A stretch of 64,000 nt of DNA from an uncultured Verrucomicrobiota bacterium (GTDB lineage: Bacteria; Verrucomicrobiota; Verrucomicrobiia; Opitutales; Opitutaceae), in assembly GCA_903904685.1 (NCBI GenBank), contig CAIVDS010000064.1:1-64000 (forward strand). The letters run 5' to 3'. The translations under genes were made by a program, and so were the position numbers. This document shows positions 27,446 to 48,258 of this stretch, one piece after another. The notes beneath the pieces were generated by a model. It was given only the letters and a program-made list of their open reading frames with translations, was not told where the DNA came from and did not search any database. The first letter of the stretch is position 1; every line of letters starts with the position of its first letter.

Positions 27446-27477
27446 GAAAGTGTGGCCTCCGCATCTATTGAAGGGTT

Positions 27478-30400: not shown

Positions 30401-31821
30401 GTCCCCCACGGCGGAGTGCCAGGGGCGTAGACGGTCATCTCATAACGAAGGTCAAGCGGCTTGTGCCAGAGGCCGCGAACGGTGTAGGCGCCGGGCGCGA
30501 CTAAGGCAGACGGGATGCTGTAAAGACCGTGGTTGGCGGCCTCGGAATCGCGGCCCAAATCATCAGTGCCATCCCACCAGACCACGTTGTCACCCTTCGG
30601 AAACGGAGTTTGTGAAATGAGGTTGCGGATGCGCTTCCCGGAAGCGTCCTCAATGACCAGCGTCACCTCGCCATTGTCGGGGAGCGTGAAGCGGACCGGA
30701 ATCGGCGCATGGGCTTCCGCCGCCGGGGGAATGACGGCTGTTTGGAGAGTTGTGTTGTATAATGGCTCCAACGCCATCCATTCGCCAAGGCTTACCCGCT
30801 TGCCATTCCGCGAGCGCGAATTGGCCCCCGTTTCATCGAGCGCCGCCGTGAACCGAATACGGAGCGCGCGGGTCGTGACCGGCGCATCAAAAAAGACGGG
30901 CGCCAGATCAAGCTGCCCACCCTGCGGTTTCACGCCGGAAAGCGTCTGGAGTGTCTTCCAATCCGATTCATTCGCCTCGCGAGGATGCTTTGCCGCTGGC
31001 CCCGCGTAGGCCTGTATTTCTGCGGCGGCCCATTGGTTGCCCAGAAGGGCCACCCCTTGGAGCGTCACTGGTCCTGGCCAGACGAGCATCCCCCACTCCG
31101 GGTTTTCAGCGATGGTTTTCGGCCGGTCTCCGTCGCGCGACGATATGTTCTCCCATATCCCCTTGTTGATCGCATTCTCATCGTTGAGCCGGAAGGCATT
31201 CTGGTCCGAGGCGCTTGTCGTGGCGAGGGCCTGCGGCGCGAGATTCGCCAAACGGGCGGGAAAAATCGCGGCGGCGAGCTGCCCCGCGTAACTCCTGTCG
31301 TTTGGCTGCGCCGTATGGGTGAAGCGAATCGCCCGTGTCGTTACTGCGGTTGGCAGCGTCCAGAGCACGGCATCATCGGGTTCCGCCTCCGCATCCGACA
31401 CCTGGCCGGCTTTGAGCCGCTGCGCAGGGATCCACTGCGAGTCGTTGGCGAGGTCTCCAGGGTAGGTCATGCCGGGCTTTAGAACGCTCACCTGGCCTGC
31501 ACCCCGGATCAGGACCGATCCGATTGTCACCGGGTTGCCGAATCCGATCCGAAGGTAGCGAACGCCGGGAGTCTTCGAGTCGCCGAACTGGGGACGGCCA
31601 TCGGTCGGCACTTTTTTGCTCCAGAAATAATGAGCCGGCGTCGCGACACCGTGTCCATCAAGCCGGACAACCTCTTTCTCCACGCCGTTGACCCATTCGG
31701 AGTAGGTGATTGAGCCGAGATTGTTGGCATCCAGAACCATCGTCGCCGACGTATTCGGGGCGGCGAAGATCGAAACTGGAATGGCCAGACCAACAATAAA
31801 TGCGAGCAGGGGTATTTTCAT
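27478..31821 (-). CDS. Giant secreted protein: discoidin-like, FlgD-like, NHL propeller, CBM9-like
   Basis: A 1447-aa protein from the ATG at 31821, with a signal peptide (MKIPLLAFIVGLAIPVSIFA). In order: discoidin/F5-8-like segments (residues about 30-370, ending TTRALRIRFTA); a FlgD Ig-like domain (about 390-470; VVWWDGTDDLGRDSE); a long NHL-type beta-propeller (IKIYVSDRG-like repeats such as DKIYVSDRGNSHQVKVFSPE); an EF-hand-like loop DLNGDGQVQPEEV; and a C-terminal CBM9-like domain (from about 1210; FDGKLGDWSDAQWAEIDHRG). No catalytic domain is recognised. It is a parallel relative of the upstream gene (31853-35896). Probably exported and carbohydrate- or cell-surface-binding; function inferred only. 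Confidence 0.8.
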   Translation of the reverse strand: MKIPLLAFIVGLAIPVSIFAAPNTSATMVLDANNLGSITYSEWVNGVEKEVVRLDGHGVATPAHYFWSKKVPTDGRPQFGDSKTPGVRYLRIGFGNPVTIGSVLIRGAGQVSVLKPGMTYPGDLANDSQWIPAQRLKAGQVSDAEAEPDDAVLWTLPTAVTTRAIRFTHTAQPNDRSYAGQLAAAIFPARLANLAPQALATTSASDQNAFRLNDENAINKGIWENISSRDGDRPKTIAENPEWGMLVWPGPVTLQGVALLGNQWAAAEIQAYAGPAAKHPREANESDWKTLQTLSGVKPQGGQLDLAPVFFDAPVTTRALRIRFTAALDETGANSRSRNGKRVSLGEWMALEPLYNTTLQTAVIPPAAEAHAPIPVRFTLPDNGEVTLVIEDASGKRIRNLISQTPFPKGDNVVWWDGTDDLGRDSEAANHGLYSIPSALVAPGAYTVRGLWHKPLDLRYEMTVYAPGTPPWGTADGSGGWLTNHTPASCALFVPAAKAPGGEPLVYLGVAVAEGGSALAWLNLDGKKIGGRGWIGGSWTGANYLAGDAGPNAKPGIHAYAASSFTGNKKYGVDGKVEIRLTKLTASGDRPVLTPTYLCDPLAVRKPGDDDPNRGLLGGLAVHNGTLVFSQTALNQLVFIDADAGKILATPPLPSPGVLAFDSQGRLLAISGKSLLRFTLNGVPAKLPTPETLVSNFEDPRGITLDSTDKIYVSDRGNSHQVKVFSPEGKPLAIIGKPGAPEAGPYDPRHMNNPKGLAVDSNGRIWVTEDDFQPKRVSVWNADGTLWKSFYGASRYGGGGSLDPKDHTRFYYDGMEFRLDWKKGTNEPVRVFYRESATNLKLAFRDGPPETPLYINGHRYLTDVYNSVATSGHDTTFLFLDNGDIAVPVAGSGNAYRWDILKGEAFKSRWPQGIDPNADHPKDSAFFIWSDLNGDGQVQPEEVTIQPGSGGGMTIGDDGSFLAARFGVSKDALKATRFKPVQFTDNGVPVYDFAAGEILAPAQGSASDGGDQILIGTDGCLVMTTPPPPFSKLGIGGARNGQPAWSYPSLWPGLHPSHNAPVPSKSGMLIGTTRLLGGLVTPKGEAGPLFFINSNQGNIYAFTQDGLFVAQLFQDMRQGKPWEMPFVERNMSLNDLTLHDENFFPTVAGSPDGTVYINTGGLTTFARVDNIDTIRRIPPVAIQVSSDDLKQARDFVVSREASRQAAQGAGILSVSLRASAPAFDGKLGDWSDAQWAEIDHRGTNAWFNSNSKPYNVSGAVTVAGGKLFVAWRTDDANLLKNAGDAPNGLFKTGGALDLMIGTDPKADPKRAGAVPGDERLVVAQVGGKTRALLYRAVVPGTADKDKVPFNAPWHGITLDRVDDVSAQVELIANGSGNYAIAVPLSVLGLDPKPGMRIKGDIGILRGDGKQTTQRVYWMNKATAIVSDVPTEAELTPGLWGTWSFEQK

Positions 31822-31852
31822 GGAAAAAAGTTTGGTTGCCGTGCTTTGAATC

Positions 31853-34800
31853 TCACTTGATCTGCACCTCTCCCCAGTATTGCGGATAGAGCCATGCCTC
31901 GGTCGGAATATCATCGGTCATCGTGGTTTCGACATGTCCGCCGGAGTAGAGCCAGTTGCGCGAGACCGCCTGCAAACCTTGTGACTTGGCCCCGGAGAGC
32001 AGCACCTCCACGTCGCCCTTGATGGATACGCCGGACGTGATCGGGAATTCCACAAAGCTGCGCGGCACGGTCATCAGTGCCGTGTAGCCCTTGTTGTCGG
32101 CATCCGCCGTCAGCACCACCTTGCCGTCGGGAATGTCCCCGACAAAGTCGAACGACTTGGTGCCGGACGCCTGTGTGAAATAGGGCTTCGCCTGCTTGGC
32201 CTGCTTGGAAAGCGGCTTCATCGCGATCAACCGCGACTGGCCCTGCATCTTCGCCGCTAGGATGCGCAGATCGCCCAGCGCGGGTTTGTTGCGATTGCCC
32301 GAGGGGCCCAAATCAAGCCCCACCACATCCCCGCTTTTGAAAACCACATTTGCATCGTTCCCGTCGTTTCGCAGCGGAGTGTCGTCCGCGACATGGATCT
32401 TCGCATAGAGATTGTCTTTGTCGTAACCAACCTGCGCTGTCGCGAGCGGCGCCCCTGCTCTCATCAGTGTGGCCACCGGCGCGGAACTCCACGTCTCATC
32501 CCGGGTGATGTCCCCCGAAAGCGGCACGATCTGCAAATTCTGCGCCACCTGTGCCAGCGAAACCCCTTCATAGGTCTTGTCCAGTTTTACCGTCCCATGG
32601 AATCGCTGTTCACCGGACACTTTCAGGTTCTTGTCAAAGCCCTCCACGGCATAGATTCCGCCTTGGTCGTAGGCATAGACCTTCTTGAGCTTGTCGAAGG
32701 CCTGGACACGTCCGCTGAAGTTTTCACTTCCAAAGGTATAGGGCCCGGACGGAGCCAGATTGTTGGGATCGTTCATCAGCGTATCGACGTAGAACCCGTC
32801 GCTCGTGTAGAAATAAATCGGCCCCCACTCGCTGCACATGGAAACGTAGCTGTCGTCGATCAGGTCGTTCATCGACCATGTGTGATACATCTCACCCGGA
32901 TTGGGCATTGCGGTGGCCTTCCGTCCGGCGATCCAGAGCATCTTCCCGTCCGGTCCGTACTTGGCGAATTTGACGGCGTTGGATTCCGCCGTGTGACCAA
33001 GACCTTCCAGCATGCGTTTGGCCAGGTTCGTATCGGCGTAGGCGCACCATTGCGACTGGGGAATGCCCGGGAACATCGCCTCGATTTTCCCGGCAAGCGC
33101 GGGCGTCAAATGCGGAACGGTGGTCGTGATGCAGGTATAAAGATTCCCCGACTTGTCCACGCGGACGCCGACCGCGCCGCTCCGTGGACTTGTGCCCAAT
33201 CCTTTGAGTTTGCTGGGAATAAGGGCCGGCACGACGTAGGTGGCCTTGGCCGGATTCCATGAAATGGCCCCGTTGCTGGCGAAGCCCTCGGCGGGGATTT
33301 TCAAAATGCTGTTGGCCGTGGTGATCAGGTAGGCGTTCCCCTGGCGGTCCACCCACATGGTGCCGGCTCCCGCGGACACATTGGGCAACGGCTTGCCTTC
33401 GACGGTGTCGATGATCGTCACTTCGTCGGGCTGCATCTTGTTGTCACCATTGCGATCGATCCACATCTCGATGAACGCGGCCTTGGTTTCCGGTTTGCGC
33501 CGGTCACGGATGTTATAGACATCCAGATGGCCGACCGGTTTGATGCTGTCGCCTTCGATCAGGCAGACGGCATGCGGGTTGGAGTCCGCGATGAAATATT
33601 TCCGGCCATTTTCGAGTATGCTGATGCTGGGGAAACCTTCTCCGAACAACGTTCCGACACCTTCCATATTGCATTTTTGAGGCGCCCAATAGGCATCGGG
33701 GAGCCCGATTTCGCTCCCGGCTGGAACCGTCGCCCGCGCGAATCCTTCCGGTTCAAACGGATAATAGTTTGTCATGGGATCTTCCGGATCCGCTACGTTT
33801 TCGATTCCGTAACCCGGCCAGCCGAACCAACGCGTCAGCGTCTTGCCTGAAACCGCATCGATGCGGTTGAAAATTTTCGGAATCGAACTCTCGGCCACGA
33901 CCAACCCTCCTTGCTTGTCGGCCACGATTTGGGAAGGATCACGATAACTGGTGGGATCGTAGGCTCCAGACCACGGACGCCCACCAGGCTTGCCCAACGT
34001 GCGGACAAGCTTGCCGTCGGGTGAAAACGTCTTGATTTGCTGGCTTGCGCCCTCGTCGGTCACGGTGATTTTCCCCGAAGCATCCACCGCCACTCCCACC
34101 GGCGCTTCCAGCCCTGTGGTGACGACCGGTGTCGGCGCTCCCTCCGTACCCTTGAAGCGCACGATCTGCGCCGGCTGGTCGGTGCCAAAGCTCACGGCGT
34201 AAAGATTTCCCTTCGCGTCGAGCGCCAGGGCCCGCGGCCTCGGGCAATCGAGTTTACGGCTCAAAGCGCCAGATTCCGCATCAAGCACCTGAATGATATT
34301 CTGCGAATAGACCGCGGCAAACACCTCATTCGCGGTCGCCGCCAGGCCAAGGCACTCCGGTTCGGTGCCGTCTCCGGGCCGTGGCGTGCGTCCCATCCCG
34401 TTCACCCCACCCTCTGCGGGCAGACTGTTTGCCGGAGGCATGATCGCCGTGATCGTCGTGCTCGCCGTGCCGGGCATAATCGGCACCGATCCCTCTTTGT
34501 CATACAGTGCGAAAAGTCCTGTCGCCGTGTTGAGACGGCTCAACACGGGGTGCATGCCGTCATAAGCCGCGAAGAGATATTTGCCATTGGAAGCGATTGC
34601 TCGCGGTCCGAGGAATCCTCCCAGCACGAAAGGAGACGCCCGCCAGATCGTGTTTCCGGCGTAATCGATTTTCACCATTTGCCGCTGGGATTCCGCGCCT
34701 GTCCAGCCGAAGTAGATGCCGGTGTCATCCGCCGCCACCGCCGATGGCACGCCGTGATCGCCGCCCCAGCCTCCCTTGCCATCCTCGGTGGGATAAGGCG

Positions 34801-35896
34801 GATTGCCCGAGCAACCGACGAAGCCCACCAGCTTGATTTTCAATCCGTGCGAAAAATAAGCGGCCCAGTGATATTTGCCGGGCGTTTGTACGAACCCCCA
34901 CTGGTCGCGTCCATCCCAAAAAGCCGTGTATTTCCCCGCTTTCACCGGCTGCCCGCCGATCACCTCGCGGATCACCTCACCCTTTTCCCCCACGATGTTG
35001 ACCGAGAGTTTCCCATCCTCCGGCACCTTCACCGTGATCGGCACGCCCGTCGGCGCATCGGTGGCGACGGCCAGAGCCTCCTCCATGGTCACGTGTTTCG
35101 GTTTCACATTGCCCGTCGGGCTGAATTCCGTCTGTCCCCAGCATTGCCACTGCATGAAGGCGAAATCCCCGGGGCTGGCGGAGTAAACCGCATTGACGGC
35201 GTAGAACCATCCTGCGTTCGCCCAATGAAGCCCGAAAATCGTCGTCATGCGCGCCCCGGGCTTGAACGGGTTCTTGCCGCCGGGGACGTTCAACGCCGAC
35301 CACGGCAGCACCGACTGCAACACATACTGGTTCTCCGTTTCGGTGATCACGATCTTGCTGCCGGGCGGGTTGAATGCCTTTCCCTGGCTGCCGCCGTGCA
35401 TGCCGCCGTACTGGATGTTGATGAAGTTCTGCCCGTCGTCGGTGTTTTTCCAGAACGTGATATGACAAACCTGCTTGGAGGTGTGCATCACCGGATCGTT
35501 GTTGCTCAGAGGATAACCCAGCGACGGATCGGAACAAAGACGCAGCTCGATGATGTCGCCGACCCAGAAGGGATCGGTCAGGCCATTGTGATTGACAAGC
35601 TTGCGCCCGGGCAGACGCACCTTGGCATACACGTAAAGATTATCGTCGTCGTAGTTGAGCGCCAGGTTTGCGTGCAACTGCTTGGCCAGTTGCGCGGACA
35701 TCCATACCGGCTCCGCTCCGGACAGATCCCAGCCCGCATCGCTGCCGTCCATGGCGGGCGGTCCCTTCGGGACGGGGACTGCGCGCATCAAGCCTTCGGA
35801 AAGATCCACCGCATGTGCCGGCGGACAAAACAGCAACATCGCGCAAAGCGAGAGCAGAACACAGGGGCAGAACAACAGGAAGGCAGGGGATTTCAT
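31853..35896 (-). CDS. Giant secreted protein: CBM9-like, FlgD-like, NHL propeller
   Basis: A 1347-aa protein with a strong signal peptide (LLFCPCVLLSLCAMLLFCPP, then AHA). A CBM9-like domain (residues about 30-250; PPAMDGSDAGWDLSGAEPVW) is followed by a FlgD Ig-like domain (about 275-340; GKYTAFWDGRDQWGF), an NHL/propeller region with repeats such as VGVAVDASGKITVTDEGASQ, an EF-hand-like loop DRNGDNKMQPDEV, and another CBM9-like module near the C-terminus (VVGLDLGPSGNRNKPALGD). No catalytic motif is recognised. First gene of an operon with the second giant protein (31 bp gap) and the SGNH hydrolase. Similar giants are common in polysaccharide-degrading Verrucomicrobiota. Confidence 0.8.
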   Translation of the reverse strand: MKSPAFLLFCPCVLLSLCAMLLFCPPAHAVDLSEGLMRAVPVPKGPPAMDGSDAGWDLSGAEPVWMSAQLAKQLHANLALNYDDDNLYVYAKVRLPGRKLVNHNGLTDPFWVGDIIELRLCSDPSLGYPLSNNDPVMHTSKQVCHITFWKNTDDGQNFINIQYGGMHGGSQGKAFNPPGSKIVITETENQYVLQSVLPWSALNVPGGKNPFKPGARMTTIFGLHWANAGWFYAVNAVYSASPGDFAFMQWQCWGQTEFSPTGNVKPKHVTMEEALAVATDAPTGVPITVKVPEDGKLSVNIVGEKGEVIREVIGGQPVKAGKYTAFWDGRDQWGFVQTPGKYHWAAYFSHGLKIKLVGFVGCSGNPPYPTEDGKGGWGGDHGVPSAVAADDTGIYFGWTGAESQRQMVKIDYAGNTIWRASPFVLGGFLGPRAIASNGKYLFAAYDGMHPVLSRLNTATGLFALYDKEGSVPIMPGTASTTITAIMPPANSLPAEGGVNGMGRTPRPGDGTEPECLGLAATANEVFAAVYSQNIIQVLDAESGALSRKLDCPRPRALALDAKGNLYAVSFGTDQPAQIVRFKGTEGAPTPVVTTGLEAPVGVAVDASGKITVTDEGASQQIKTFSPDGKLVRTLGKPGGRPWSGAYDPTSYRDPSQIVADKQGGLVVAESSIPKIFNRIDAVSGKTLTRWFGWPGYGIENVADPEDPMTNYYPFEPEGFARATVPAGSEIGLPDAYWAPQKCNMEGVGTLFGEGFPSISILENGRKYFIADSNPHAVCLIEGDSIKPVGHLDVYNIRDRRKPETKAAFIEMWIDRNGDNKMQPDEVTIIDTVEGKPLPNVSAGAGTMWVDRQGNAYLITTANSILKIPAEGFASNGAISWNPAKATYVVPALIPSKLKGLGTSPRSGAVGVRVDKSGNLYTCITTTVPHLTPALAGKIEAMFPGIPQSQWCAYADTNLAKRMLEGLGHTAESNAVKFAKYGPDGKMLWIAGRKATAMPNPGEMYHTWSMNDLIDDSYVSMCSEWGPIYFYTSDGFYVDTLMNDPNNLAPSGPYTFGSENFSGRVQAFDKLKKVYAYDQGGIYAVEGFDKNLKVSGEQRFHGTVKLDKTYEGVSLAQVAQNLQIVPLSGDITRDETWSSAPVATLMRAGAPLATAQVGYDKDNLYAKIHVADDTPLRNDGNDANVVFKSGDVVGLDLGPSGNRNKPALGDLRILAAKMQGQSRLIAMKPLSKQAKQAKPYFTQASGTKSFDFVGDIPDGKVVLTADADNKGYTALMTVPRSFVEFPITSGVSIKGDVEVLLSGAKSQGLQAVSRNWLYSGGHVETTMTDDIPTEAWLYPQYWGEVQIK

Positions 35897-36311: not shown

Positions 36312-37691
36312 TTAACGACGCCCCAAACTGATCGTGATCCGGTTGCCGGAAAGTTCCAGAAGCACCGGTGCGGCGAAGCCCCGAATTTCAATGCGGCCTG
36401 ATCCTTCGGCCGTGATCTCGACGGTTGAAGCCAACACTTCCATCCTGACCGTTGGACCACCGCTGGTGATGCGGAATCCCTCCGCTTCCAGAACCGTTCC
36501 GGCCAGAAGAAACAGTTGCACACTCCCGGCGCGGCGCAGGACGGCTCCGTAGCGGCCCTCAAAGCGGACTGCGGCGGTTACGAAAGCAAAGGCCTCCCGA
36601 TTCACAAAAACAAGGTCGTCAATACCCTCCCCGGTGATAGCCGCACCGATGGTCCTCCCCGCCTGGGTCAATGCTTTCGCCTCGGCGGGTTTGCGGCTTG
36701 CGGTCAGGGGTCGCAGGATGGCCAGATAGTGGTCCGGCTTTTCTGCTCTTACCATGAGGTGCCGGGTGGAGAAGCACTCGTCTGCCGGGCGGAGGACATT
36801 CCGGTGGTCTTCCTTGAATGAAAATCCGCCATTGTTCTCAGGCTGGGGCTCGGGCGCGGGCTTGTAATCATGGATCGGCAGATGCTCCACTTTTTCCTCG
36901 CAGAAGGTCTGGCCGGGAAAAAGCACCTGGAGATCGACCCCGAAACGCCCCTTGAAACGATAGCCGCTCTTGCCATCGCCGCTGTGGGCGTCGGATACCG
37001 CTTGCAGATGCCAGCGGCATGAAACTTCCTGCGAGAGTCTCAGATCGTCATGCATGACGACATACTCATCCCGCACGACCAGAATCGAACGCACATCGAC
37101 CGGATTGGGCTCCGCGAATCGGCGATGTGCAACCGGCACAAGCGTGTGATGACAAATATCGTTAAGGTAAATGGGGTCGCCCGGCTTGATCGCCAGCGGA
37201 TGAACGCCTTGGACAAACCCCAGTCCTGGAAGGGAGTGAAACCGCTCTACGTGTCCGGCAGACAGGGGCATCTCCGCATCATGGAAGGAGAGCGTGGTAT
37301 GGCGCCAGGTATCGCCCGCCTCGCCACCGTCGTAAATAAGCGGCCGGCTGCCGGCGAAGAGAATGATGCTGCCTTCCGTCCGGTGATAGCGATAACCGCC
37401 AGGTCCTTGTTTCAGCAGGAGGTAAAACTCATCGTCGGTGCCAAAATGGTCGCGAAACACCGCGCCGAATCCCTCCAACCGACGACTGGGCAACTCGGAC
37501 AGTTTGACTGGGCGGAGATCGTCTTCGGCCAGCGCTGCAAAAACAAGCGGAGCGTTGCCCGAATAGCCGCCGTTCTTTCCTCCTTCATTGTAGGCGGCCA
37601 GCAGCATGTCGCTGAAAGCGGGATCGCTCGCGCGATACATCTTGGCTGCGGCCGCGTAAATGCTCCGGCACCCATGGTCCCAGATGCGCAT
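36312..37691 (-). pseudogene. Heparinase II/III-like protein, C-terminal part after frameshift
   Basis: About 459 residues continuing the upstream frame at 37585-40566 after a one-base shift. Around 37658-37660 the minus strand reads GAG CAT TTA CGC; removing one T of the TTT gives E-H-Y-A-A-A-A-K and joins the frames without a gap. It begins IYAAAAKMYRASDPAFSDML, continues through the typical C-terminal beta-sandwich of heparinase II/III-like lyases (SRPLIYDGGEAGDTWRHTTL), and ends with a beta-rich domain. The ATG at 37691 is only a nominal start inside the overlap. Either a true inactivating indel or an assembly error; see the N-terminal part. Confidence 0.7.
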
Positions 37692-40566
37692 GATCGCCGA
37701 TCGGCGGAACGCGCCGCACGCGATTCGCAGGGAGGTAGCGGGCATTCGGCAAACCGTCACGCATCTCCTCATACAAACTCGGACAGCTCGGCGTGAGAAG
37801 CAGCACACCCCAGCGCAAGAATTCTTTGAGACGCGGAATCCTTGTCGCGTCGAAGAGACCATGGCGAAAGAGATGGAAGATCAGGTTCATCCGGCACTTC
37901 GACGCATGCAGATAATAGGCGGCCGGATTCTCATACCACTTGCCGCTGCCGGGGGTGCAATAGACGTTCAGCGAGGTTTCCATCAGGCCAATGCAATGGT
38001 CGATGAACTTGTTTGAATCGGGGTGGCCCAGAAAACAAATCCCGACCGTGCCCACCAAGTCGGTTCGGTCCGCCTCGAAATTCGCATTACGTGAATTGAA
38101 TTTCCAATTCATCAGATCGGGCTCCATGTGCATGTGCCCCATGAGCACCAGAAACTGACGGACGGACCGCTCCTCTTCTGGCGTGAAACAGCCGCTGGCA
38201 ACGATCAGATCGTAGCTCTCCGCCCAAGGCGCCACGGGCCGCGCGCCCACCGGCGAATAGTTGTCCCCAAAATCCCGCCCCAACAAAATCATCTTTGGGC
38301 GTATTTGCGCGGCATAGACCAATTCCAGCTTTTTTCGCCAGGCGGCGAGTGGATTGCTGTCCACCGCGAAGAGGAGCGCCAGGATCGGCCCGCCCCGAGC
38401 TTTGCCGTTTTGCATGCGGTCCCAGTAGGGGGCAAAGACCGGCGAGGATTTCTTCGAGCGCAGTCCGATCAAGTCTTCGCGATGCGCGACCACAAAGGGG
38501 CGCGGCATCCGATCCTGTTCGTCCAGATGCCAGTCCTTGTAATCCTGCAAACGGGGCGAAGAGTTCTTATGCTGCACGGCCGAAAGCTCCTTGAAGGGGC
38601 CGTCGTTCTTTTCGATATCCGAGACCAAGATGCCCCACTGCCGTTCGCCGTCGAAAAAACCAAAGTGGAAATAGACGTCCCCCGTCGCGTCCGTGTGCGC
38701 GGTGATCATCGAGACCGTGGAGCCGACCATCTCCGGGAAAGGCCAGTCGAGTTCCCGGTTGTCGCCCGGCCCTTGGGAAATCCGGGCGAATTTACGATCA
38801 ATCCAATCGCCCCGGCAACGACTGAACACGGCGATATAATCGGTTTCTTCCAGGTTCTTCGGGGTGACGGCATACCCGAAGCCTTGCGGTGGAATCCACC
38901 AGGCTACGGACTCCTGGATGCGCGCCAGTTCGCGTTCCTCGCTTTTTAGATCGATCCAGTGTTGGTCTCCCCCTTCGGAATGCCAGTGCAGATAGCCGCG
39001 TCCGCCGGTGAACTCGCTCAACGAGAAATCAAACGACGCACCTTCGATTTCGGGCGAAATCTCCCTCACCAGCAAATAGGCCTCGTCTCGATGCGCGGTC
39101 AGTACCCATGAATAGGTGGCTCCATTGGAAAGCTGGTAATCGATCCGGACGGACATCAGGAGCGGTCCCGTCTCCAGTATCTGAGTTTTGCGAGTGAGAA
39201 CGGCCAGATTTGCAGGGAACCGGAAGCGCCCTCGTCCGCGCCAGACACCGTTGGAGCCGCGCACTGCCACGAGCGGCGGAAGGCCGTCGGCGGCTTTGCC
39301 ATAGGCGATGCGAAAGCAAGCGGCACCGGTATCGATGATCGCCGTTTGTCCTCCTGCCTCAGGCAGGAGGACGAGATGGGGATCCGGGGTCTGAGCCGGG
39401 GCCTGACCTTCCACTTGATAGAGCGCAAAAACACGGTCGCTCAGTTGCGGCAGGCCCGTGAAAAAGGTGAGTCCCTCCTGTCCGATCTGGAACGACTGCG
39501 GATTCTGCTCCTCTGCTGAGGAAAGGAGGAGGAGCGAGACGTGATCAAGAGGGATGCCCGGCGGCAGCGGAAACGAAACCGGCTGCCTCGGAAAATCGAA
39601 ATAAAAGGGATTTTTGAGCACCAATTCGTGAACGCGGCGATAGGTTTTCCCCTCGCGGTGTAATTTGTCATGAAAAGGATTAAAAACTTCGCGAGGAGGA
39701 GCGCTCGTCCATTCGCTGATTTCCAGGTCCAGTCGTGTTTCCGTTCGGTCCTTCACCTTTACGCCGTGGTGCAAAAACCGCGTCGCAATGGCATGGACGG
39801 CAGGGTCGAGCGTCACCGCCAGAAACTCATGCGTGGCGGTGGGCACCGACTCGAAGCGATAGTTGCCTTCTTGATCGGTGACAGTGGTCAAGGCATGCAG
39901 CGGATCGAGATCCGGTATGCCGCCCATCTCGAACTGCAAATGAGTCGCCGGGTCGGGATAGGGACGGACAACATTCAAGCCCAGAGTCACGGTCACAACC
40001 GCTGCCGGTTGACCATCCGCGAAACGCACCGTCCCTGCGACTGAGCCATTCCCGGTGGTTTTTGAAGGAGCATGCACGGTCGGTGTCTCTTTGTATCTTG
40101 CCAGCGCGTTTTCGAGCGAAATCCCCTCGGAAGTTTCGAGGATCGCCTTCCCAAGAACCAACGCACATTCTTTTTGTTCCGGCGTGTCGGCAAATGATAC
40201 GGCGCGATCAAGCTCGGTCCGGGCTATTTGCCGCAACCTCCCTTGGTAAACCTCGTAAGTATGTCCTGCTTTGGAGTCCTCGGATGAGCGGTAAAACTGA
40301 TATTCAGACAGCCGATCCAAATCTATGACGGTGGTCAGGGCCAACTCGAAGGCTTCCTTCCGGTTACCCGGCACGATCCTTTGCAACGCCGCGCCAGCCG
40401 CCGGAATATCTCCGAGCATCCTATAAGCATCGTGAAGCTGCCGCAGGCGGCGATTGGTTTCCGTCTGGGCGAGACCGGGACTTTGGAGCGCCTTGAGACA
40501 AAGGCGCCGCGCGACTTCCCAGCGCCGGACGGAATGAGCCTGATCGATCGGATCTAGGGTGGGCAT
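37585..40566 (-). pseudogene. Heparinase II/III-like protein, N-terminal part before frameshift
   Basis: A 993-residue frame from the ATG at 40566. No signal peptide is evident. Residues about 1-180 are helical and TPR-like; about 190-290 is a carboxypeptidase-regulatory-like Ig domain (SVAGTVRFADGQPAAVVTVT … DQEGNYRFESVP); then beta-rich regions and, from about 750, the alpha/alpha-toroid expected of polysaccharide lyases (RSVRQFLVLMGHMHMEPDLM). After IGDHAHLGPWVPEH near 37661 the frame degrades into an Arg-rich tail while the true sequence continues in the other frame (36312-37691). Joined, the protein would be about 1415 aa. Separate from the giant-protein operon, which lies downstream across 35897-36311. 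Confidence 0.75.
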
Positions 40567-41040
40567 TAAAGATATTTGTCGGGGAGATTATCACCCATTG
40601 GGTATTATGCGCCGAGAGGTGATGCCGCATTCATTCATGCGTTATTTTCAAAACCTCGCTTGGCTGGCTGCCAAGTCAAGTGCAACAGTGGCTGGGTCGA
40701 GGATATTAGGAATAGAACCAAACAAAGATTTCAGGAGGAGAGTATGATATGGCGGTCGGTGATCTGCTTGAGGAACAAAGCGTGGATGTCTCGGTCGATG
40801 ACGGGAGTGAACAATAGCCCGGTTTTGTGCTCGCCGTCCAACATCCAGCGCCTCGTGCAAATAACCCCATTGGTAGCTAGTGGCGTCGGGGGAGCCGGAA
40901 TGCGCACCCATCGCCGGGTCGAAATCGGGCGGATGACCGTCAAAAGTTCGTAACGATGTTCGTCGGGGGCACACCTAGAGCCGCTCCGGCTGGGTTAGCT
41001 CGAAAAAGTGCATCTTCTCTCATCCGTCACCCTTTTATTT
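40567..41040 (-). pseudogene. Intergenic region with an unidentified, frameshifted coding relic
   Basis: Between about 40740 and 40943 the minus strand looks like coding sequence split over two frames: one reads DATSYQWGYLHEALD, the neighbour frame continues RWMLDGEHKTGLLFTPVIDR and then DIHALFLKQITDRH. I do not recognise the family. The stretch nearer 40660 holds a copy of GGCTGCCAAGTCA-GTGCAACA also found at 22637. The left end is the promoter side of the heparinase-like gene and the right end the 5' region of the desaturase gene. Confidence 0.4.
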
Positions 41041-42141
41041 ATGGAAACAACACAAAAATTCCGCAAAGATATAAAAATCAATTGGTATCGCTGCAAGGTT
41101 GATCCGAAAATCATGACCGAGTTGATGCAATGCAGCGATTTTCAAGGCTTCCGGCAAGTGCTGGGGCATCTTGGCCTCTGGTGCACGACCGGTATCTTGG
41201 CTTACTTGGCGTTTGAGCATATTTCCCGCTTCAATTGGATGTGGTCGATCCCGTTGTTGCTGGTGGCGTTGTTCGCGCATGGAACCGTCGGCTCGTTTCT
41301 GGGAGGGGTCGCCTGCCACGAATTGAGCCACAAAACACCGTTTAAAACCAAATCTATCAATGATATCTTCCTCAAAATTTTTGCGTTCTTTGGCTGGTGG
41401 GACCAAGTTTGGTTTCGGCCAAGCCACATCCGCCATCATCAGGTCACCGTTCACAACGACTACGATGGCGAAGTCGTGTTGCCGCAAAAACTCTCGTTCA
41501 AAGACTGGCGCTTCTGGCTCGGCCTGTTTGCATGGAACCCGGAACAAACGTGGAAAACGATCCGGACTTACTATCGGCGCGCAGTCGGACGCTTGGACAA
41601 TGATTGGTTTGAGTTTGTGCTGCCCGAAGAGAACGAAAAACTCCGCTGCGAACACCGCAACTGGGCGCGTTTCACCCTGATCGGACACGCGTTGCTGGCT
41701 GTACTCTTTATCGCGACTGGGCATTGGTTCTTGATTTTTATCTTCAATCTCGGAAGCCAATACTGCGGATGGCTGACGTTCCTCTGTGGTTCGCCCCAGC
41801 ACTACGGCCTCTTGGGTAACGTGCCCGACCACCGCGTCTGTTGCCGCACCTACACCTGTTCGTGGCTGCCTGCCTTCCTCTACTGGAACATGCAGTATCA
41901 CATCGAACACCACATGTTTCCCGCCGTGCCGTTCTTCAACCTGCCCAAGCTGCAACAGGTGATTGCAAAGGACTTACCGCCTGCGTCGTGTGGGTTGTGG
42001 GCCACGTGGAAAGAAATACTGGAGATTCATCAGCGGCAACAAACCGCCCCAAACTATGCCTTTATTCCGAAACTGCCTCAGTCAACCGGCACTAGTGTCG
42101 GAGACAACATTCTCGAAAGCGAAGCCGCCTTGGAAAGCTAG
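41041..42141 (+). CDS. Membrane fatty-acid desaturase-like di-iron enzyme
   Basis: A 366-aa integral membrane protein from the ATG at 41041 (METTQKFRKDIKINWYRC). Three histidine boxes of the FA_desaturase superfamily are present: HELSH (near residue 97), HIRHH (near 130) and HIEHH (near 287), with a further His in SPQHYGLL. Membrane segments lie around residues 45-90 and 215-260. The superfamily also includes alkane and sphingolipid hydroxylases, so substrate and reaction (desaturation or hydroxylation) are open. It opens the lower-GC cluster that continues with an isomerase-like gene and three PhyH-type oxygenases. Confidence 0.88.
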   Translation: METTQKFRKDIKINWYRCKVDPKIMTELMQCSDFQGFRQVLGHLGLWCTTGILAYLAFEHISRFNWMWSIPLLLVALFAHGTVGSFLGGVACHELSHKTPFKTKSINDIFLKIFAFFGWWDQVWFRPSHIRHHQVTVHNDYDGEVVLPQKLSFKDWRFWLGLFAWNPEQTWKTIRTYYRRAVGRLDNDWFEFVLPEENEKLRCEHRNWARFTLIGHALLAVLFIATGHWFLIFIFNLGSQYCGWLTFLCGSPQHYGLLGNVPDHRVCCRTYTCSWLPAFLYWNMQYHIEHHMFPAVPFFNLPKLQQVIAKDLPPASCGLWATWKEILEIHQRQQTAPNYAFIPKLPQSTGTSVGDNILESEAALES

Positions 42142-42317
42142 GGTATTGGAAGCACAATTCGCTACGCAAAGCAGGGAGAGTCGGAACTTATTTTTATTTC
42201 TTTATATGATATAACATAAATCCCTCTATCCCATTCGTCTTTTTTTGCGCTCGTGTGAGTTCATTCCAATCCTCTGCCTAAAAATTATGGAGGCGTTTTT
42301 CAGCGCGAGAAAAGGTT
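42142..42317. other. AT-rich spacer
   Basis: Short AT-rich gap between the desaturase gene and the convergent sugar isomerase-like gene. No gene and no clear terminator are seen. Base composition is clearly lower in GC than the core regions on either side of the accessory part. Confidence 0.5.
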
Positions 42318-43133
42318 TCATGAACGAAGCTGCGGGAAGCGCAAACGCTGCCGGGCGGCCTGCCAGTCGCAAATTTCTCCGAGCTTCGCCACTGGGATCC
42401 CAGTATAGGGCAACGTGGAAAGATATGGTGGCGGACCAAACTCTGGCGTGAGCGTGGAAGTTTTAAAACCACGTTTGCGCTGAGTGCTCCAGATCAGATC
42501 CCACCAAACTTCATGCGCCTTCAAATGCGGAGCAAACTCGGGCGCTCGCGGGTCCGGCACCTGTGGCCCTTCTTCATAACCGACGCGGGCATGAATGTGC
42601 AAAGTATGTTCTGCTATTTGCTGGATGATTTCCAGCTCCGTAGTGAGCAGGCGTTCGCAGACGCAGACAAAGTGGCTGAAATCTGCACAGATCTGAAGTT
42701 CTGGCAGTTCGCTCAGAACAAACTGCGTGATCCACGGGTTAAAAAGAATGCGCCCCCGGTGTGTTTCATGAGCGACGGGGATGCCCGCCGCTTTTTCGAT
42801 TTCCAGTGCGCCGCGGAAAAACTCCAAGCTATCATCCCTCGAAAAAGCGTCAGCGCCGCTATGACTGTTGATAAGAACCGGCGAGAGTTCCCTTATCGCA
42901 TCAATGCTGCGCCCGAACGATTTTAGATGTTCCCTCACCGAATCTCCCGAGGAAAAGATCTGGCCGATGAACGCAAAGTTGTGCTCTTGCAACAAACCTC
43001 GCAACGCCCCTTTGTCCTCGCCTGCTGCAAGGCCGGTCTCAATACCCGCGTAGCCGAACGCTTTAAATTGAGGGAAGGTTTGGGAGCGCGGTTCGGTGAC
43101 GCCCCAAAGATGTCGGTAGAGTTGAAGGTTCAT
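42318..43133 (-). CDS. Sugar phosphate isomerase/epimerase-like TIM barrel (AP-endonuclease-2 fold)
   Basis: A 271-aa protein from the ATG at 43133 (MNLQLYRHLWGVTEP). It has the xylose-isomerase-like TIM barrel pattern with metal ligands in order: AHETHRGRILFNPW (Glu, near residue 131), ICADFSHFVCV (Asp/His), and LHIHARVGYEEGPQV (His, near 200), plus a late Glu in TLTPEFGPPPY. The family isomerises or epimerises sugars, inositols or keto-acids. Its ATG overlaps the stop of the upstream PhyH-like gene (43130-43133), so both are translated as a unit. Exact substrate unknown. Confidence 0.85.
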   Translation of the reverse strand: MNLQLYRHLWGVTEPRSQTFPQFKAFGYAGIETGLAAGEDKGALRGLLQEHNFAFIGQIFSSGDSVREHLKSFGRSIDAIRELSPVLINSHSGADAFSRDDSLEFFRGALEIEKAAGIPVAHETHRGRILFNPWITQFVLSELPELQICADFSHFVCVCERLLTTELEIIQQIAEHTLHIHARVGYEEGPQVPDPRAPEFAPHLKAHEVWWDLIWSTQRKRGFKTSTLTPEFGPPPYLSTLPYTGIPVAKLGEICDWQAARQRLRFPQLRS

Positions 43134-43954
43134 ACAATGACGGGATTTAAGGGAGAATTGATGATTTCCCCCACTTTGACGCCAGGACACCACGACTCCC
43201 AGTCCGCTTTCTGGTTTTTATTTTTCGCTTCCGCTAGTTTCATTTCTTTGTCCATGTAAATTATCGTCATCACCCTTCGTGGGTACGCACTCGTATTCGC
43301 GCCGGCGCGGTGGAACGTCCACCCAGAATGAAAGCTGACTTCGCCGAGATCAAACCGGCTTTCCTCCTTTGGGTATTGCTTGAGCGCCTCGGAGAGTTTG
43401 ATCTCGCTATCGTCGCCGATCTCCAAATCGCGACCGTAAGAGAGTCGTTGGCTTTTGGGGCAGAAAGCAAGCGGCCCCATCTCCAGTGGAATATCTTGGA
43501 GCGGAATCCAGACTGTGGTTGTCTTATCGGAACTCAGGGGCCAGTAATATTGATCGGCATGCCATGGAGTAATCCCTCCGCCGGCTTCCTTGTAGAGCGC
43601 CTGGTCATGGTAAAGACGGACGCCTTTGGTTCCCATCAACTCTGCGGCGATGCGGCCAAGCCGTTTGCCGAGGACAAACTCCTTCACTATTTCGCTAACC
43701 GCCCAGAGATTCGTTACCTGCAGAAAAGCTTTGCCATATGTTCCTCGCTGCTCAAGCGGCATATGCTGGACACTCAATTCGGCCACTTTTTTTGAAATCT
43801 CCCCGCCATAATAAGCAATGACTGTGGGCGACAGCACCTTTTTGAGTTTAATAAAGCCGTTCTCACGATAAAAGGCGATATGCTCAGGGGTAAGAGAGTA
43901 AGCAGAATCAATAGGATCAGAGGGGCGCAATGACGTAAATTGGGGCGTAGACAT
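43130..43954 (-). CDS. Phytanoyl-CoA dioxygenase (PhyH)-family Fe(II)/2OG oxygenase, copy 1
   Basis: A 274-aa protein from the ATG at 43954 (MSTPQFTSLRPSD); the upstream frame is not homologous. The jelly-roll iron ligands are visible: HxD in TPWHADQYYWPL (near residues 145-150), distal His in SGWTFHRAGANTS and the 2-oxoglutarate-binding Arg in YPRRVMTIIYMD. Such enzymes hydroxylate unactivated carbons of lipids, sugars or natural products. It overlaps the TIM-barrel gene by 4 bases and diverges from PhyH copy 2 across a 292-bp AT-rich gap. Confidence 0.9.
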   Translation of the reverse strand: MSTPQFTSLRPSDPIDSAYSLTPEHIAFYRENGFIKLKKVLSPTVIAYYGGEISKKVAELSVQHMPLEQRGTYGKAFLQVTNLWAVSEIVKEFVLGKRLGRIAAELMGTKGVRLYHDQALYKEAGGGITPWHADQYYWPLSSDKTTTVWIPLQDIPLEMGPLAFCPKSQRLSYGRDLEIGDDSEIKLSEALKQYPKEESRFDLGEVSFHSGWTFHRAGANTSAYPRRVMTIIYMDKEMKLAEAKNKNQKADWESWCPGVKVGEIINSPLNPVIV

Positions 43955-44246
43955 GGGTTGAACAAGGACAATATTTTGCTGTCCGTCGAAATATTTGGGC
44001 GCAACTTTATTTGTCACGCAACGCTTCTTTGGGCATATTACGTGAGGCAATAATTCCTATTATTTTACTTGATCAGTATGTGCTGACATGGCCTCTATTA
44101 ATGAACGTAATCTAGATGCGTATTTTAATTATCTTATTTTAAATCGACGTCAGCGTGACAGAGCATGGCCGACTACCCAAAGACCGTGATGGAGTTTCGG
44201 AACCAATTCAGGAGCGAGGAAGACTGTCGAGAGGCTATCTATACAC
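43955..44246. other. AT-rich divergent intergenic region
   Basis: A 292-bp gap between two divergent PhyH-type genes, rich in AT (for example TTTTAATTATCTTATTTTAA, near 44121-44140), and so a probable double promoter region. Its right end carries the transposase relic listed at 44165-44254. No regulator gene lies in the gap. Confidence 0.55.
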
Positions 44247-44254
44247 ATGAATAA
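44165..44254 (+). mobile_element. N-terminal relic of an IS1595-type transposase
   Basis: A 29-codon frame reads MADYPKTVMEFRNQFRSEED and then CREAIYTHE-stop. The first 25 residues resemble the start of IS1595-family transposases (PxTLxEFxxRFxTEExCRxYL), which normally continue WPxGFxCPxCG; here the zinc-ribbon and the rest are missing. The relic overlaps the start of the next PhyH-like gene (ATG 44247) and is not a working element. Identification is from recalled pattern and covers only 25 residues. Confidence 0.55.
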
Positions 44255-45059
44255 CATTCACTCCCTCATCACTGTTGAACAAAAACGCCAATTTAACGAA
44301 CTTGGCTACTGCATCGTGGCCGATCTTTTTACCGAACTGGAGATTCAGGAAATCGAGGCTTTTTTTGAAGAATACAAACACGCAGGCGGCAAAGTTTTTG
44401 ACGGTGGCAACAGCTACAAAGACATCGATCCCGCAAAATCGCAGCTTCGTGCGATGAATCCGCACCGCTACAGCGAAAAAGTAAAGCGCTGGTTCTTGAA
44501 TCCGAATGTTGCGGACGTGCTCGTGCAACTACTCGGCAAGCCTGCTCTCGGTGCGCAAACGATGTATTATTTCAAACCGCCAAACGCCAAAGGACAAGGC
44601 ATGCATCAGGACAATTTCTATTTACTAGCCAAGCCCGCGACCTGCATCGCTGCGTGGACGGCGATAGATACTGCAGATCTCGACAACGGCTGCCTCTGGG
44701 TCGTGCCCGGTTCGCATCGCGATCCTATTCTTTGCCCGGAATCCGGTGGTGAAAAGTGGATGAATTATGGAGATACTCACATCACAAAATTCCCGCGTGA
44801 ACAAAAACCTGTCGCTGTGCCTGTGCCACGGGGTTCGACGATGTTTTTCGGTGGCAATCTCATCCACGGTTCCGGCCCCAACCGCACAAAAGATCGCTGG
44901 CGGCGGACATTCATCGGGCACTACATCGACGAAGCTTCCGAGCAGGTCGCAAAGTTCTACCATCCTCTTGTAAGCATGGCCGGAGAAGTCGTGAGTAATC
45001 TCCATATTCCCGAGGGTGGTGGCCCGTGCGGGGACAGTTGGCAAGGCGACGTGCATTAA
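44247..45059 (+). CDS. Phytanoyl-CoA dioxygenase (PhyH)-family oxygenase, copy 2
   Basis: A 270-aa protein (MNNIHSLITVEQKRQFNELG). Iron ligands: HxD in GMHQDNFYLLAKP (near residues 118-120) and distal His in GNLIHGSGPNRTKDR; the 2OG Arg is in RWRRTFIGHYI. The AAWTAIDTADLDNGCLWVVP segment is the typical PhyH strand after HxD. The start directly follows the transposase relic, which may have replaced its original upstream region. It is followed by copy 3 on the same strand (72 bp gap). Confidence 0.9.
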   Translation: MNNIHSLITVEQKRQFNELGYCIVADLFTELEIQEIEAFFEEYKHAGGKVFDGGNSYKDIDPAKSQLRAMNPHRYSEKVKRWFLNPNVADVLVQLLGKPALGAQTMYYFKPPNAKGQGMHQDNFYLLAKPATCIAAWTAIDTADLDNGCLWVVPGSHRDPILCPESGGEKWMNYGDTHITKFPREQKPVAVPVPRGSTMFFGGNLIHGSGPNRTKDRWRRTFIGHYIDEASEQVAKFYHPLVSMAGEVVSNLHIPEGGGPCGDSWQGDVH

Positions 45060-45130
45060 TTTTTTATCAATTGATTATGATATAATTAAAAAATTACAGA
45101 TCGCCTTTTATTCGACAGCAATCTCTGCGC

Positions 45131-46033
45131 ATGAATACAATCATCCCCCTTAAATCTGCTGGTTTCGTACTTGATCTAAACGAAACAGCGTTCGGAAACT
45201 TGCGCCGCTCGGATGATGTGCTTGTGGATGAGAAAGCACTCCGATCACGAATGGAGGAGGATGGTTATCTTTATCTTCCGGGCTTTTTTTCAAGGGATGA
45301 AGTGCTGGAAGTAAGACGTGAGCTTTGTTCTCAACTTGAACGCTCGGGGCGCCTTGATCCGGATTTTCCAGCTATTGATGCAATGCCATGCCCGGCAGAC
45401 AAAACGCCTTTGTTCCCGAAGGATGCACAACCGATCAATCGCAGACATCCTACCTTGAGTCGCTTTCTTTTTGGCGACCAAGTCATGGGCTTCTACAGCC
45501 GAATCCTCGGTGACGTGGCGAGGCATTACGATCACACATGGATTCGCGCTGTTGCTCCCGGGCGCGGAACGGCGCCGCACTGCGATCTCGTTTACATGGG
45601 GCGCGGAACGCATGATGTCTGCACTGCGTGGATTCCATATGGCGACACACCGCCTAAAGTAGGCGGATTGATGATACTCGAAGGCTCGCACCGCCAAAGC
45701 GAACGGTTAAGCAACTACCTCTCTCAGGACGTAGACACCTATTGCGTCAATCGTCCCGGTGGGTACAAATTCAAGTCGGGATGTCTAACAAAAAATCCCG
45801 TCACACTTCGCGAAAAGCTCGGAGGTCGCTGGCTTACTGCGGAGTTCAAGCCCGGAGACCTTTTAACTTTCGGGATGAAACTCGTCCACGCCTCGCTCGA
45901 TAATCAAAGTGATCGGATTCGGCTCTCGACGGACACCCGATACCAGTTAGCTATGCATAAAATCGATCCACGCTGGGTAGGCACCGACACCGAAGAATAC
46001 GCCATGAAAAATCGCGTTGGGTTGATTTGCTAG
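45131..46033 (+). CDS. Phytanoyl-CoA dioxygenase (PhyH)-like oxygenase, copy 3
   Basis: A 300-aa protein (MNTIIPLKSAGFVLDLNETA) less similar to the other two. It keeps a HxD in TAPHCDLVYMGRGTHDVCT (near residue 155), the strand KVGGLMILEGSHRQSERLSN, and a distal His in MKLVHASLDNQSDRIRLSTD with candidate 2OG Arg residues after it. The N-terminal YLYLPGFFSRDEVLEVRREL matches the usual PhyH start. Same strand as copy 2. Three such oxygenases with a desaturase-like and an isomerase-like enzyme suggest successive oxidation of one product. Confidence 0.85.
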   Translation: MNTIIPLKSAGFVLDLNETAFGNLRRSDDVLVDEKALRSRMEEDGYLYLPGFFSRDEVLEVRRELCSQLERSGRLDPDFPAIDAMPCPADKTPLFPKDAQPINRRHPTLSRFLFGDQVMGFYSRILGDVARHYDHTWIRAVAPGRGTAPHCDLVYMGRGTHDVCTAWIPYGDTPPKVGGLMILEGSHRQSERLSNYLSQDVDTYCVNRPGGYKFKSGCLTKNPVTLREKLGGRWLTAEFKPGDLLTFGMKLVHASLDNQSDRIRLSTDTRYQLAMHKIDPRWVGTDTEEYAMKNRVGLIC

Positions 46034-46358
46034 GCTGTGCTCGCTCGTTCAAGCTGCACGAAGGACAATTGATATGCTCCAAGATGGGGATGGAGCCAAA
46101 TACCGACTGTGGAGCCACACCTTCCACTCGCCCTCAAAATCACTCCCGCGCTCACCCCTTACCTCGCTCTATCTGACCCATGACAAAGGCATCCGGATCC
46201 AGGCCCTTTTCGACGAGTCAACGCCATCGCAACCAGAAAAATCCGGCCTGTATTCAAAAGTCGAGATCCCTTCCGCACCTTTCTTTCAAAAATCCAACTT
46301 CGTACTTCTTCCGGAGACTCAGCATTGAGTTTTGCAAAGGCTCCTTAAGGGATCAAAG
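46034..46358. other. Intergenic stretch, no recognised gene
   Basis: A 325-bp gap between the last PhyH-like gene and the 3' end of dnaA, which is convergent. Short open frames exist (for instance 46074-46328 on the plus strand) but their residues look like random translation and match nothing I know. It forms the right border of the accessory region. Confidence 0.5.
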
Positions 46359-47747
46359 TTATCGGTTGAGCTGAGTTTTAAGGAATTCGATGCTTCCGCG
46401 GGCAGTGGTGTCCTGCTCCATCATGTTGTCCACGGATTTGCAGGCGTGGATGACGGTGCCGTGATCGCGACCGCCAAAGGCGTCGCCGATTTCCTGAAGA
46501 GAATGTTTGGTGAGCGTGCGGGTGAGATACATCGCGATCTGGCGGGGGATCGCGATGTTGTTAGGGCGGCGCTTGCTCGTCATGTCGCTATGGCGGATCT
46601 GGTAGTGGTCGGCGACTTTCTTCTGGATGATCTCGATGGTGAGCTGGTTCTGCGCCTGCTCCATGAGTACATCTTGCAGGAGAATCTCGGTGGCGGCAAG
46701 GTCGATGGTCTTGCCGGTGAGTGTTGCGTAGCTGGCGACCTTGATGAGCGCGCCTTCGAGGCGGCGGATGTTCTTGGAAATGTTATGCGCGATGAAGTTG
46801 GCGACATCGGCGGGGATGTTGAACTTGAGGGTCGCTGCCTTAGTGCGGAGGATGGCAAGGCGGGTCTCGAAATCGGGAGCCTGGATGTCGGCGGGAAGGC
46901 CCCACTCAAAGCGGGAAACGAGGCGGGCTTCGAGTTTTTGAATCTCGGAGGCGCGACGATCGCTGGAGAGGATGATTTGCTTGGACGACTCGAACAGGTC
47001 GTTGAAGGTATGGAAGAACTCTTCCTGGATGCGCTCTTTGCCGCTGAGGAATTGCACGTCGTCAATCAGGAGGACGTCGACGTGGCGATAGCGCTGGCGG
47101 AACTTGGTCAACGCGTTTTCCTGGAGGGCTTGGATGAACTCGTTGGTGAACTTTTCCGTGGAGAGGTAGGCGACCTTGGTGTCGGGATTGTTGCGCAGGA
47201 TGGCATGGCCAATGGCATGCATCAGGTGTGTCTTGCCGAGGCCGGTGTCGCCGTAGAGGAAAAGCGGGTTGTAGGCCTGCGCGGGGGACTGGGCGACAGC
47301 CATAGCGGCCGCGTGAGCCATCATGTTGTTGCTGCCGACGACGAAAGTTTCGAAAGTGTTGCGCGGATTGAGCGTGCCGGTGTGGGTGCCACCACGTTCA
47401 TCGTAACGGGTTCGGCGGATGGTGGGTTTCGCTCGAGTGGCCGTGGACTCGCCGACGGGCTGGGCGGCCGTGGTGCGAGAGTGGGCGTCCTGCCCGGCTT
47501 TCTTGAGTTTGACGGTGATCACCCGCCCTGAAGTCAGCCTCAGGCGCTGGACGATCAGGTCGAGGTAGTTGTCGTTGATCCAGATGGCCGCAAAATCGTT
47601 GGGCACGCCTAACGTGAGGGTGTCTTCCGATGCTTCGAGACACACGATGGGTTCAAACCAAAGTTGATAAACATCCTCAGGAAAAAGCCCTTTGAAATCG
47701 CTTTTGACGGTTTCCCAAAGGCTCGGAGAGATGGCGACTAAAGACAT
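46359..47747 (-). CDS. dnaA: Chromosomal replication initiator DnaA
   Basis: A 462-aa protein from the ATG at 47747 (MSLVAISPSLWETVKSDFKG); a GTG at 47792 gives 15 more residues and overlaps a DnaA box, so the ATG is preferred. Domain I is about residues 1-85; the AAA+ domain has Walker A LYGDTGLGKTHLMHAIGHAI, Walker B VDVLLIDDVQFLSGK and the sensor region IILSSDRRASEIQKLEARLV. The C-terminal DNA-binding domain IV ends with the signature GRDHGTVIHACKSVD. It binds DnaA boxes at the adjacent origin and opens it for helicase loading. Confidence 0.97.
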   Translation of the reverse strand: MSLVAISPSLWETVKSDFKGLFPEDVYQLWFEPIVCLEASEDTLTLGVPNDFAAIWINDNYLDLIVQRLRLTSGRVITVKLKKAGQDAHSRTTAAQPVGESTATRAKPTIRRTRYDERGGTHTGTLNPRNTFETFVVGSNNMMAHAAAMAVAQSPAQAYNPLFLYGDTGLGKTHLMHAIGHAILRNNPDTKVAYLSTEKFTNEFIQALQENALTKFRQRYRHVDVLLIDDVQFLSGKERIQEEFFHTFNDLFESSKQIILSSDRRASEIQKLEARLVSRFEWGLPADIQAPDFETRLAILRTKAATLKFNIPADVANFIAHNISKNIRRLEGALIKVASYATLTGKTIDLAATEILLQDVLMEQAQNQLTIEIIQKKVADHYQIRHSDMTSKRRPNNIAIPRQIAMYLTRTLTKHSLQEIGDAFGGRDHGTVIHACKSVDNMMEQDTTARGSIEFLKTQLNR

Positions 47748-48258
47748 GGACAAAAAATGACTAGTAAGAGGAGCGGACGAGGGTTTATTCACACTTCATA
47801 GTCTAGGTGGTCAAAGACACGTCTCAGCGGGAGGATTCCATGCACCAAAGGCCTGCGAAAAGGGGGAAGCGGATCATCGGAAAAGAGAAGAGATAAAGAC
47901 TGAATGGTAAAAAATTGATGATCAGTGTCTTGAGCTTGTTATAGAGGCGGGCTGGAAAGGGACTCGCTGGGGACATGTGAAAGAACCACTGAAACTATGC
48001 GACTGAAACGGACGAGGACGTAATAACGTTGAAGCGGAAAAGGGTTTCAAGAGTAACTTTTCGACAAGTTATTCACACGAAGTTTGCGGATAAGTTTTTG
48101 AATTTTTTTGTTGCCACAAAAATGACATTTTCGCGCCAAAGTTAAAAATGTCACGACGGTGTAACGGCGCCGGCATTACGAGAACAAAATCTCCTCTGAA
48201 AATGTGTCGGGCTGTAACCAATACGTAACATGGCAGGTTCGGCGCGGCACCATTGCGG
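47748..48258. other. oriC: Probable chromosomal replication origin (oriC)
   Basis: A 511-bp non-coding gap upstream of dnaA with DnaA-box-like 9-mers: TTATTCACA at 47785-47793 and 48069-48077, and TTATCCGCA (minus strand) at 48085-48093. The last two lie 8 bp apart in opposite directions beside an AT-rich tract (TTTTTGAATTTTTTTG, 48094-48111), fitting a DNA-unwinding element. A perfect 9-bp inverted repeat TGACATTTT/AAAATGTCA lies at 48123-48131 and 48145-48153. GTAAC occurs four times in the same direction (48053, 48161, 48214, 48225). Position next to dnaA supports an origin; strand-composition skew could not be computed. Confidence 0.65.

Follow-up and report, generated by a model that had tools for sequence, protein, structure and literature searches.

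Genes C and B of an uncultured Opitutaceae bacterium (Verrucomicrobiota), encoding a PhyH-type Fe(II)/2-oxoglutarate (2OG) oxygenase and a xylose isomerase-like TIM barrel, respectively, are strongly supported as a genuine member of an oxygenase/TIM-barrel module that is widespread in bacteria. The pair is found among five neighboring enzyme genes (A–E) in the stretch of 64,000 nucleotides analyzed here (the window), which belongs to a near-complete genome of 3.2 Mb. A single pathway formed by all five genes, as had been proposed from the sequence alone, is not supported: in relatives A, D and E have other neighbors, and C orthologs mostly occur without B.

Gene content and base composition of the locus

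The locus is bounded by a heparinase-like region on one side and by dnaA (46359–47792, reverse strand; an ORF identified by eye and outside the module) on the other, and the GC skew becomes positive at dnaA. The sequence-only reading had described five enzyme genes of unlike origin, and all five proved to be real, with profile matches and intact active-site motifs. Gene A (41041–42141, forward strand) encodes a stand-alone membrane di-iron desaturase/hydroxylase-like protein, which scored 94.1 bits against FA_desaturase (PF00487; cut-off 29.7) and contains the three histidine boxes earlier ascribed to it (H93ELSH, H129IRHH and H287IEHH). No electron-transfer partner gene was found beside A. 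The protein shares the di-iron His-box superfamily with the arginine hydroxylase GntB and the desaturase DesB but belongs to neither NCBIfam equivalog family, its scores being 29.9 bits against a cut-off of 380 and 20.6 bits against a cut-off of 500, respectively. Gene B (42318–43133, reverse strand), the second gene of the C-B pair, encodes a D-tagatose 3-epimerase/xylose isomerase-like TIM barrel with a score just over the PF01261 cut-off (31.6 vs 31.1 bits).

C (43130–43954, reverse strand), D (44247–45059, forward strand) and E (45131–46033, forward strand) encode PhyH-type oxygenases (PF05721; 81, 126 and 61 bits, respectively, cut-off 22), the last from a subfamily common in the order. 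The genome contains five PhyH matches, three of them in this locus. The HxD motif and distal histidine that had been noticed in all three proteins were recovered in a motif search, as H132AD with H209/H215 in C, H120QD with H207 in D, and H150CD with H253 in E. The best solved relative of C is SnoK, and C has the PhyH fold family and the HxD...H iron ligands in common with SnoK/SnoN, MysH and other natural-product PhyH oxygenases, although scores against this group are low (61.9 bits at best). No link is known to us between oxygenases of the SnoK/SnoN/MysH type and a B-like TIM barrel. C precedes B, and the stop codon of C and the start codon of B share an ATGA overlap (43130–43133, reverse strand), in line with the original observation; the two genes are probably translationally coupled.

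The GC content across 41–46 kb is 0.49–0.52, compared to 0.55–0.62 on both flanks, which bears out the earlier impression of a GC-poor region. GC3 is 0.53–0.59 for B–E, 0.67 for A, and mostly 0.65–0.80 for flanking and host genes. The low GC and GC3 values support the acquisition of at least B–E, and the AT-rich island comprising A–E was, judging by its composition, probably acquired. Of the transfer proposed previously, the foreign base composition thus stands, whereas the transposase relic does not: the candidate ORFs lacked Pfam, plasmid and second-copy support, and no mobile element was confirmed. The ORF at 40648–40974 had no Pfam match, a 29-amino acid ORF at 44165–44254 that by eye resembles a transposase N terminus had neither a Pfam nor a plasmid match, and no second copy of the segment 44051–44246 was found in the genome. 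A short open frame beside E (46035–46322) also had no Pfam match. Phage origin was rejected, as D had no match in phages. On the heparinase-like side, two overlapping ORFs in different frames (36312–40566; 993 and 516 amino acids), the second with a weak Hepar_II_III_C match, look like one frameshifted heparinase-like gene. Further away, GDSL-type and very large secreted-looking proteins (26192–35896) suggest, by eye, a glycan-degradation region adjoining the oxygenase island.

Conservation of the genes among relatives

Each of A–E was searched over the same 141 related genomes, and the neighborhoods of about 40 loci were compared. The full set was not found in any locus fetched, whether among the neighborhoods of relatives or the B loci from public genomes. 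Of the co-occurrence suggested for these families, it is the pairing of B with an oxygenase that is conserved, not the five-gene set. Judged by the refuting condition set with the original proposal, the five-gene reading fails and the pairing stands. Homologs of A (51–68% identity) have heparinase-like, symporter, ROK or aminotransferase genes, or unrelated PhyHs, as neighbors. A link between A and the adjacent heparinase-like gene was considered and rejected; A homologs adjoin Hepar_II_III_C genes elsewhere, but the gene in the window has no BLAST similarity to those. A conserved cluster of A with PhyH was likewise rejected, as the PhyHs beside A in genomes G093 and G102 are orthologous neither to each other nor to C, D or E. 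PhyH genes abound in both genomes (loci L152 and L153); in L152, Pfam confirmed five of them in the 11 kb surrounding the A ortholog. A paralog of A with 80% identity is located elsewhere in the genome of the window, at G000:C47:57715-58812 (L151, 9189–10313). A partial A gene in G036:C4 (L162) is 100% identical to this paralog over 108 amino acids, pointing to a near-identical strain or to contamination of one of the assemblies.

Of 337 genomes sampled from the phylum, 12 contain a C ortholog; the group is sharply bounded, with mostly 52–61% identity followed by a drop to approximately 35%. Most of these orthologs lack B and are instead flanked by AraC or housekeeping genes. D homologs (56–66%) usually adjoin an AraC regulator, and relatives of E (45–54%) are common and often have genes for AraC and a DUF455 protein as neighbors. 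Other members of the genus contain only distant B-like genes (51% identity or less), at other places.

These neighborhoods bear on the possibility that oxygenase genes acquired independently of one another accumulated near the presumed replication origin, with no joint function beyond C-B; we give this slightly less than an even chance, and it is compatible with C-B being a module. The GC3 of B–E, lower than that of A and the flanks, is consistent with such an accretion, as are the usually single occurrence of D and E with AraC elsewhere and the distant, differently placed B-like genes of the genus. Four oxygenases beside one B are, on the other hand, more than would be expected if B were irrelevant, and the lack of a confirmed mobile element also speaks against it.

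The TIM-barrel protein and its oxygenase partners

The fold of B was predicted with confidence (AlphaFold2 model from 38 sequences, pLDDT 96.7). Among solved structures, its nearest relatives are D-tagatose 3-epimerase-type epimerases and isomerases (VIA Z 19–21, 10–15% identity), and enzymes cleaving C- and O-glycosides fall in the same fold group. The single best VIA match was Art22, on which nothing relevant was found in the literature. In the model, E123, D151, H181 and E231 are positioned at the ends of strands 4, 5, 6 and 8, which we take to be the arrangement of metal-dependent members of the fold. E123, D151 and E231 are present in 38 of 38 homologs and H181 in 37, and further invariant or near-invariant residues among these homologs are H125, R126, R128, H154, R183, Q191 and W211. 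The four residues thus constitute a putative metal site, and B would be metal-dependent. B accordingly shares its fold and the E, D, H, E order at strands 4, 5, 6 and 8 with the family of D-tagatose 3-epimerase and L-xylulose-5-phosphate 3-epimerase UlaE (including DgpB-C and AtOGE), but its identity to these enzymes is low and its genetic partners are oxygenases rather than kinases or dehydrogenases of one sugar pathway.

Ten aligned B sequences, used as query against public genomes, yielded 80 loci distributed over Verrucomicrobiota, Planctomycetota, Chloroflexota, Acidobacteriota, Bacillota, Bacteroidota and Pseudomonadota. Genes in these loci were called with a purpose-written ORF script, and oxygenases were labelled with small profiles built for this analysis. 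A PhyH or desaturase-like gene occupied position -1 of B in 22 of 67 loci, compared to 3 of 434 positions 4–8 genes away (Fisher p ~3e-18, which is a guide only because the rows are related and were chosen by similarity to B). The partners of B belong to five classes: PhyH, desaturase, Rieske oxygenase, P450 and IPNS/EFE-type 2OG oxygenase. Desaturase partners are either stand-alone or fused to Rieske and reductase domains; the FA_desaturase-Rieske-FAD/NAD reductase fusions of approximately 760 amino acids, followed by a TIM barrel (L173, 7303–9588; L169, 9922–11742; and others), are by their domain content predicted self-sufficient desaturase-like oxygenases. PhyHs resembling each of the three in the window occur beside B, those of C type in L205, L251 and L277, of D type in L236 (43%), and of E type in L223, L231 and L245 (37–40%). 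The gene overlap of C and B also recurs, as ATGA in L205 from a planctomycete and L251 from Bacillus sp. SJS, and as TGATG in L277 from another genome of the phylum (G216). On the tree of B, the partner class of the labelled rows switches 10 times, indicating that oxygenases are swapped while B stays.

Plasmids carry the same association. Among matches to B in a plasmid collection, a 2OG oxygenase was found nearby in all five that were opened, and as the next gene in four of them. Plasmids of Paraburkholderia sprentiae, Kozakia and Klebsiella encode B beside an IPNS/EFE-type 2OG oxygenase (profile-checked in P. sprentiae and Klebsiella), a Runella plasmid encodes a PhyH followed by B, and on a Spirosoma plasmid the PhyH is three genes from B. 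In the Klebsiella pneumoniae sequence CP125156 (L309, 6001–7919), the B homolog, for which the PLSDB table lists no gene, precedes the IPNS/EFE-type oxygenase and a transporter gene, close to oqxB.

About half of the B loci have no oxygenase within approximately 2 kb that the profiles built here detect, and some B genes adjoin sugar transporters or unrelated genes. In Anaerolineae, methyl-transfer genes (URO-D family, B12-binding and pterin-binding proteins) are located beside the B module, and other loci contain sulfatase, GH20, GH36, aldose epimerase-like, MFS sugar transporter or Gfo/Idh genes. Such neighbors fit modules demethylating or dealkylating a variety of small molecules, among them sugars. 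In L250, a match to the 5' ureB sRNA family (10381–10672) lies antisense to an ORF downstream of B.

One clade of B, separate from that of the window, is found in guanidine-degradation loci of Proteobacteria and others, together with genes encoding DUF1989, urea/guanidine carboxylase, NMT1-type transporters and glutamine synthetase. Guanidine-I and/or Guanidine-II riboswitches (Rfam) were detected in L254, L268, L229, L237 and L305, and Guanidine-II in L239; the riboswitch directly precedes the desaturase gene in L268 and L239. The oxygenase and TIM-barrel loci L305, L254, L268 and L239 are apparently undescribed members of the guanidine regulon. In the guanidine operon of Vreelandella boliviensis (PMC12508155), methylguanidine is hydroxylated by the 2OG oxygenase MgdH, and the hemiaminal lyase MgdL accelerates the decay of N-(hydroxymethyl)guanidine, a stable hemiaminal. 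MgdL, for which a beta-barrel with D49/R51 as catalytic residues is described, and PAL are the only dedicated lyases named there. As in C-B, the gene of a non-heme iron 2OG oxygenase adjoins that of a partner protein, and in guanidine-riboswitch operons other members of the B family, paired with oxygenases, take the same slot as MgdH-MgdL. The genetic logic of such pairs is that of MgdH-MgdL. B is nonetheless not recognizably MgdL, being a TIM barrel with a putative metal site, whereas MgdL is described as a beta-barrel using D49/R51. The MgdH-MgdL operon includes a guanidine riboswitch and genes for guanidine carboxylase. No riboswitch was detected in the window and no DUF1989 in its genome, and a guanidine function was rejected for the window on these grounds.

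Proposed function and competing explanations

The functional unit in the window would be the two-gene operon C-B, in which an interchangeable oxygenase is combined with a dedicated TIM-barrel partner. C would hydroxylate a small metabolite using O2 and 2-oxoglutarate, and B would act on the hydroxylated product. Most likely, B would accelerate the breakdown, or the rearrangement, of a carbinolamine or hemiacetal, with oxidative dealkylation or demethylation as the net reaction. As further oxygenases of the same island, A, D and E may feed B or act alone. The presence of the B family beside five unrelated kinds of oxygenase suggests that B finishes reactions which oxygenases start, and the processing of a hydroxylated product is what we infer as the best account of B. 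For C-B as a module in which C hydroxylates and B processes the product, with carbinolamine or hemiacetal breakdown as the likely chemistry, we consider the chances to be even.

The chemistry of B itself is possibly that of a hemiaminal or hemiacetal lyase, a guess by analogy that extends to the dealkylation. In its widest form, the family would comprise metal-dependent TIM-barrel lyases that finish the hemiaminals and hemiacetals of five oxygenase classes and, in some bacteria, would represent a second, non-homologous solution to methylguanidine demethylation; this we regard as rather unlikely. Counting against the module and lyase reading for the window are the half of B loci without a detected oxygenase, the B genes beside sugar transporters or unrelated genes, the position of its B outside the guanidine clade, the lack of a riboswitch and of DUF1989, and the many C orthologs lacking B. 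No work joining PhyH or guanidine riboswitches to B-like TIM barrels was found in the literature, the poor coverage of subscription journals making this weak evidence of novelty.

Since the D-tagatose 3-epimerase fold usually performs sugar isomerization, B may simply be a sugar (3-)epimerase or isomerase of carbohydrate catabolism that acts on the sugar and not on an unstable hydroxylated intermediate, with A, C, D and E preparing an unusual sugar, for instance by O-demethylation of methylated sugars. The closest folds of B (those of D-tagatose/allulose 3-epimerases and of UlaE), the carbohydrate-related genes beside some B loci (sulfatase, GH20, GH36, aldose epimerase-like, MFS sugar transporter, Gfo/Idh), and the glycan-type genes at 26–40 kb of the window agree with this role. 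It leaves unexplained, however, both the swapping among five oxygenase classes and the oxygenase and B genes in guanidine-riboswitch operons, where no sugar enzyme would be expected, and we consider it somewhat unlikely. That A–E form one biosynthetic or tailoring pathway for an oxidized lipid or glycolipid is very improbable: the genes are clustered and alike in low GC, three of the five genomic PhyH genes are in this one place, and PhyH subtypes like C, D and E each adjoin B somewhere, but no genome examined holds the set, the orthologs of A, D and E have other neighbors, the PhyH neighbors of A in G093 and G102 are orthologous neither to one another nor to those of the window, and a carrier, synthase or transporter is missing.

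Hemiaminals and similar products of oxygenases are usually assumed to decay by themselves. If the lyase reading of the B family is true, dedicated lyases of the hemiaminal type would be common, in the form of this broad TIM-barrel family that accompanies five classes of oxygenase. Genes at present annotated as 'sugar phosphate isomerase/epimerase' or 'xylose isomerase' would then gain a function, and the search for substrates of many orphan PhyH, desaturase-like and Rieske enzymes would have a guide.
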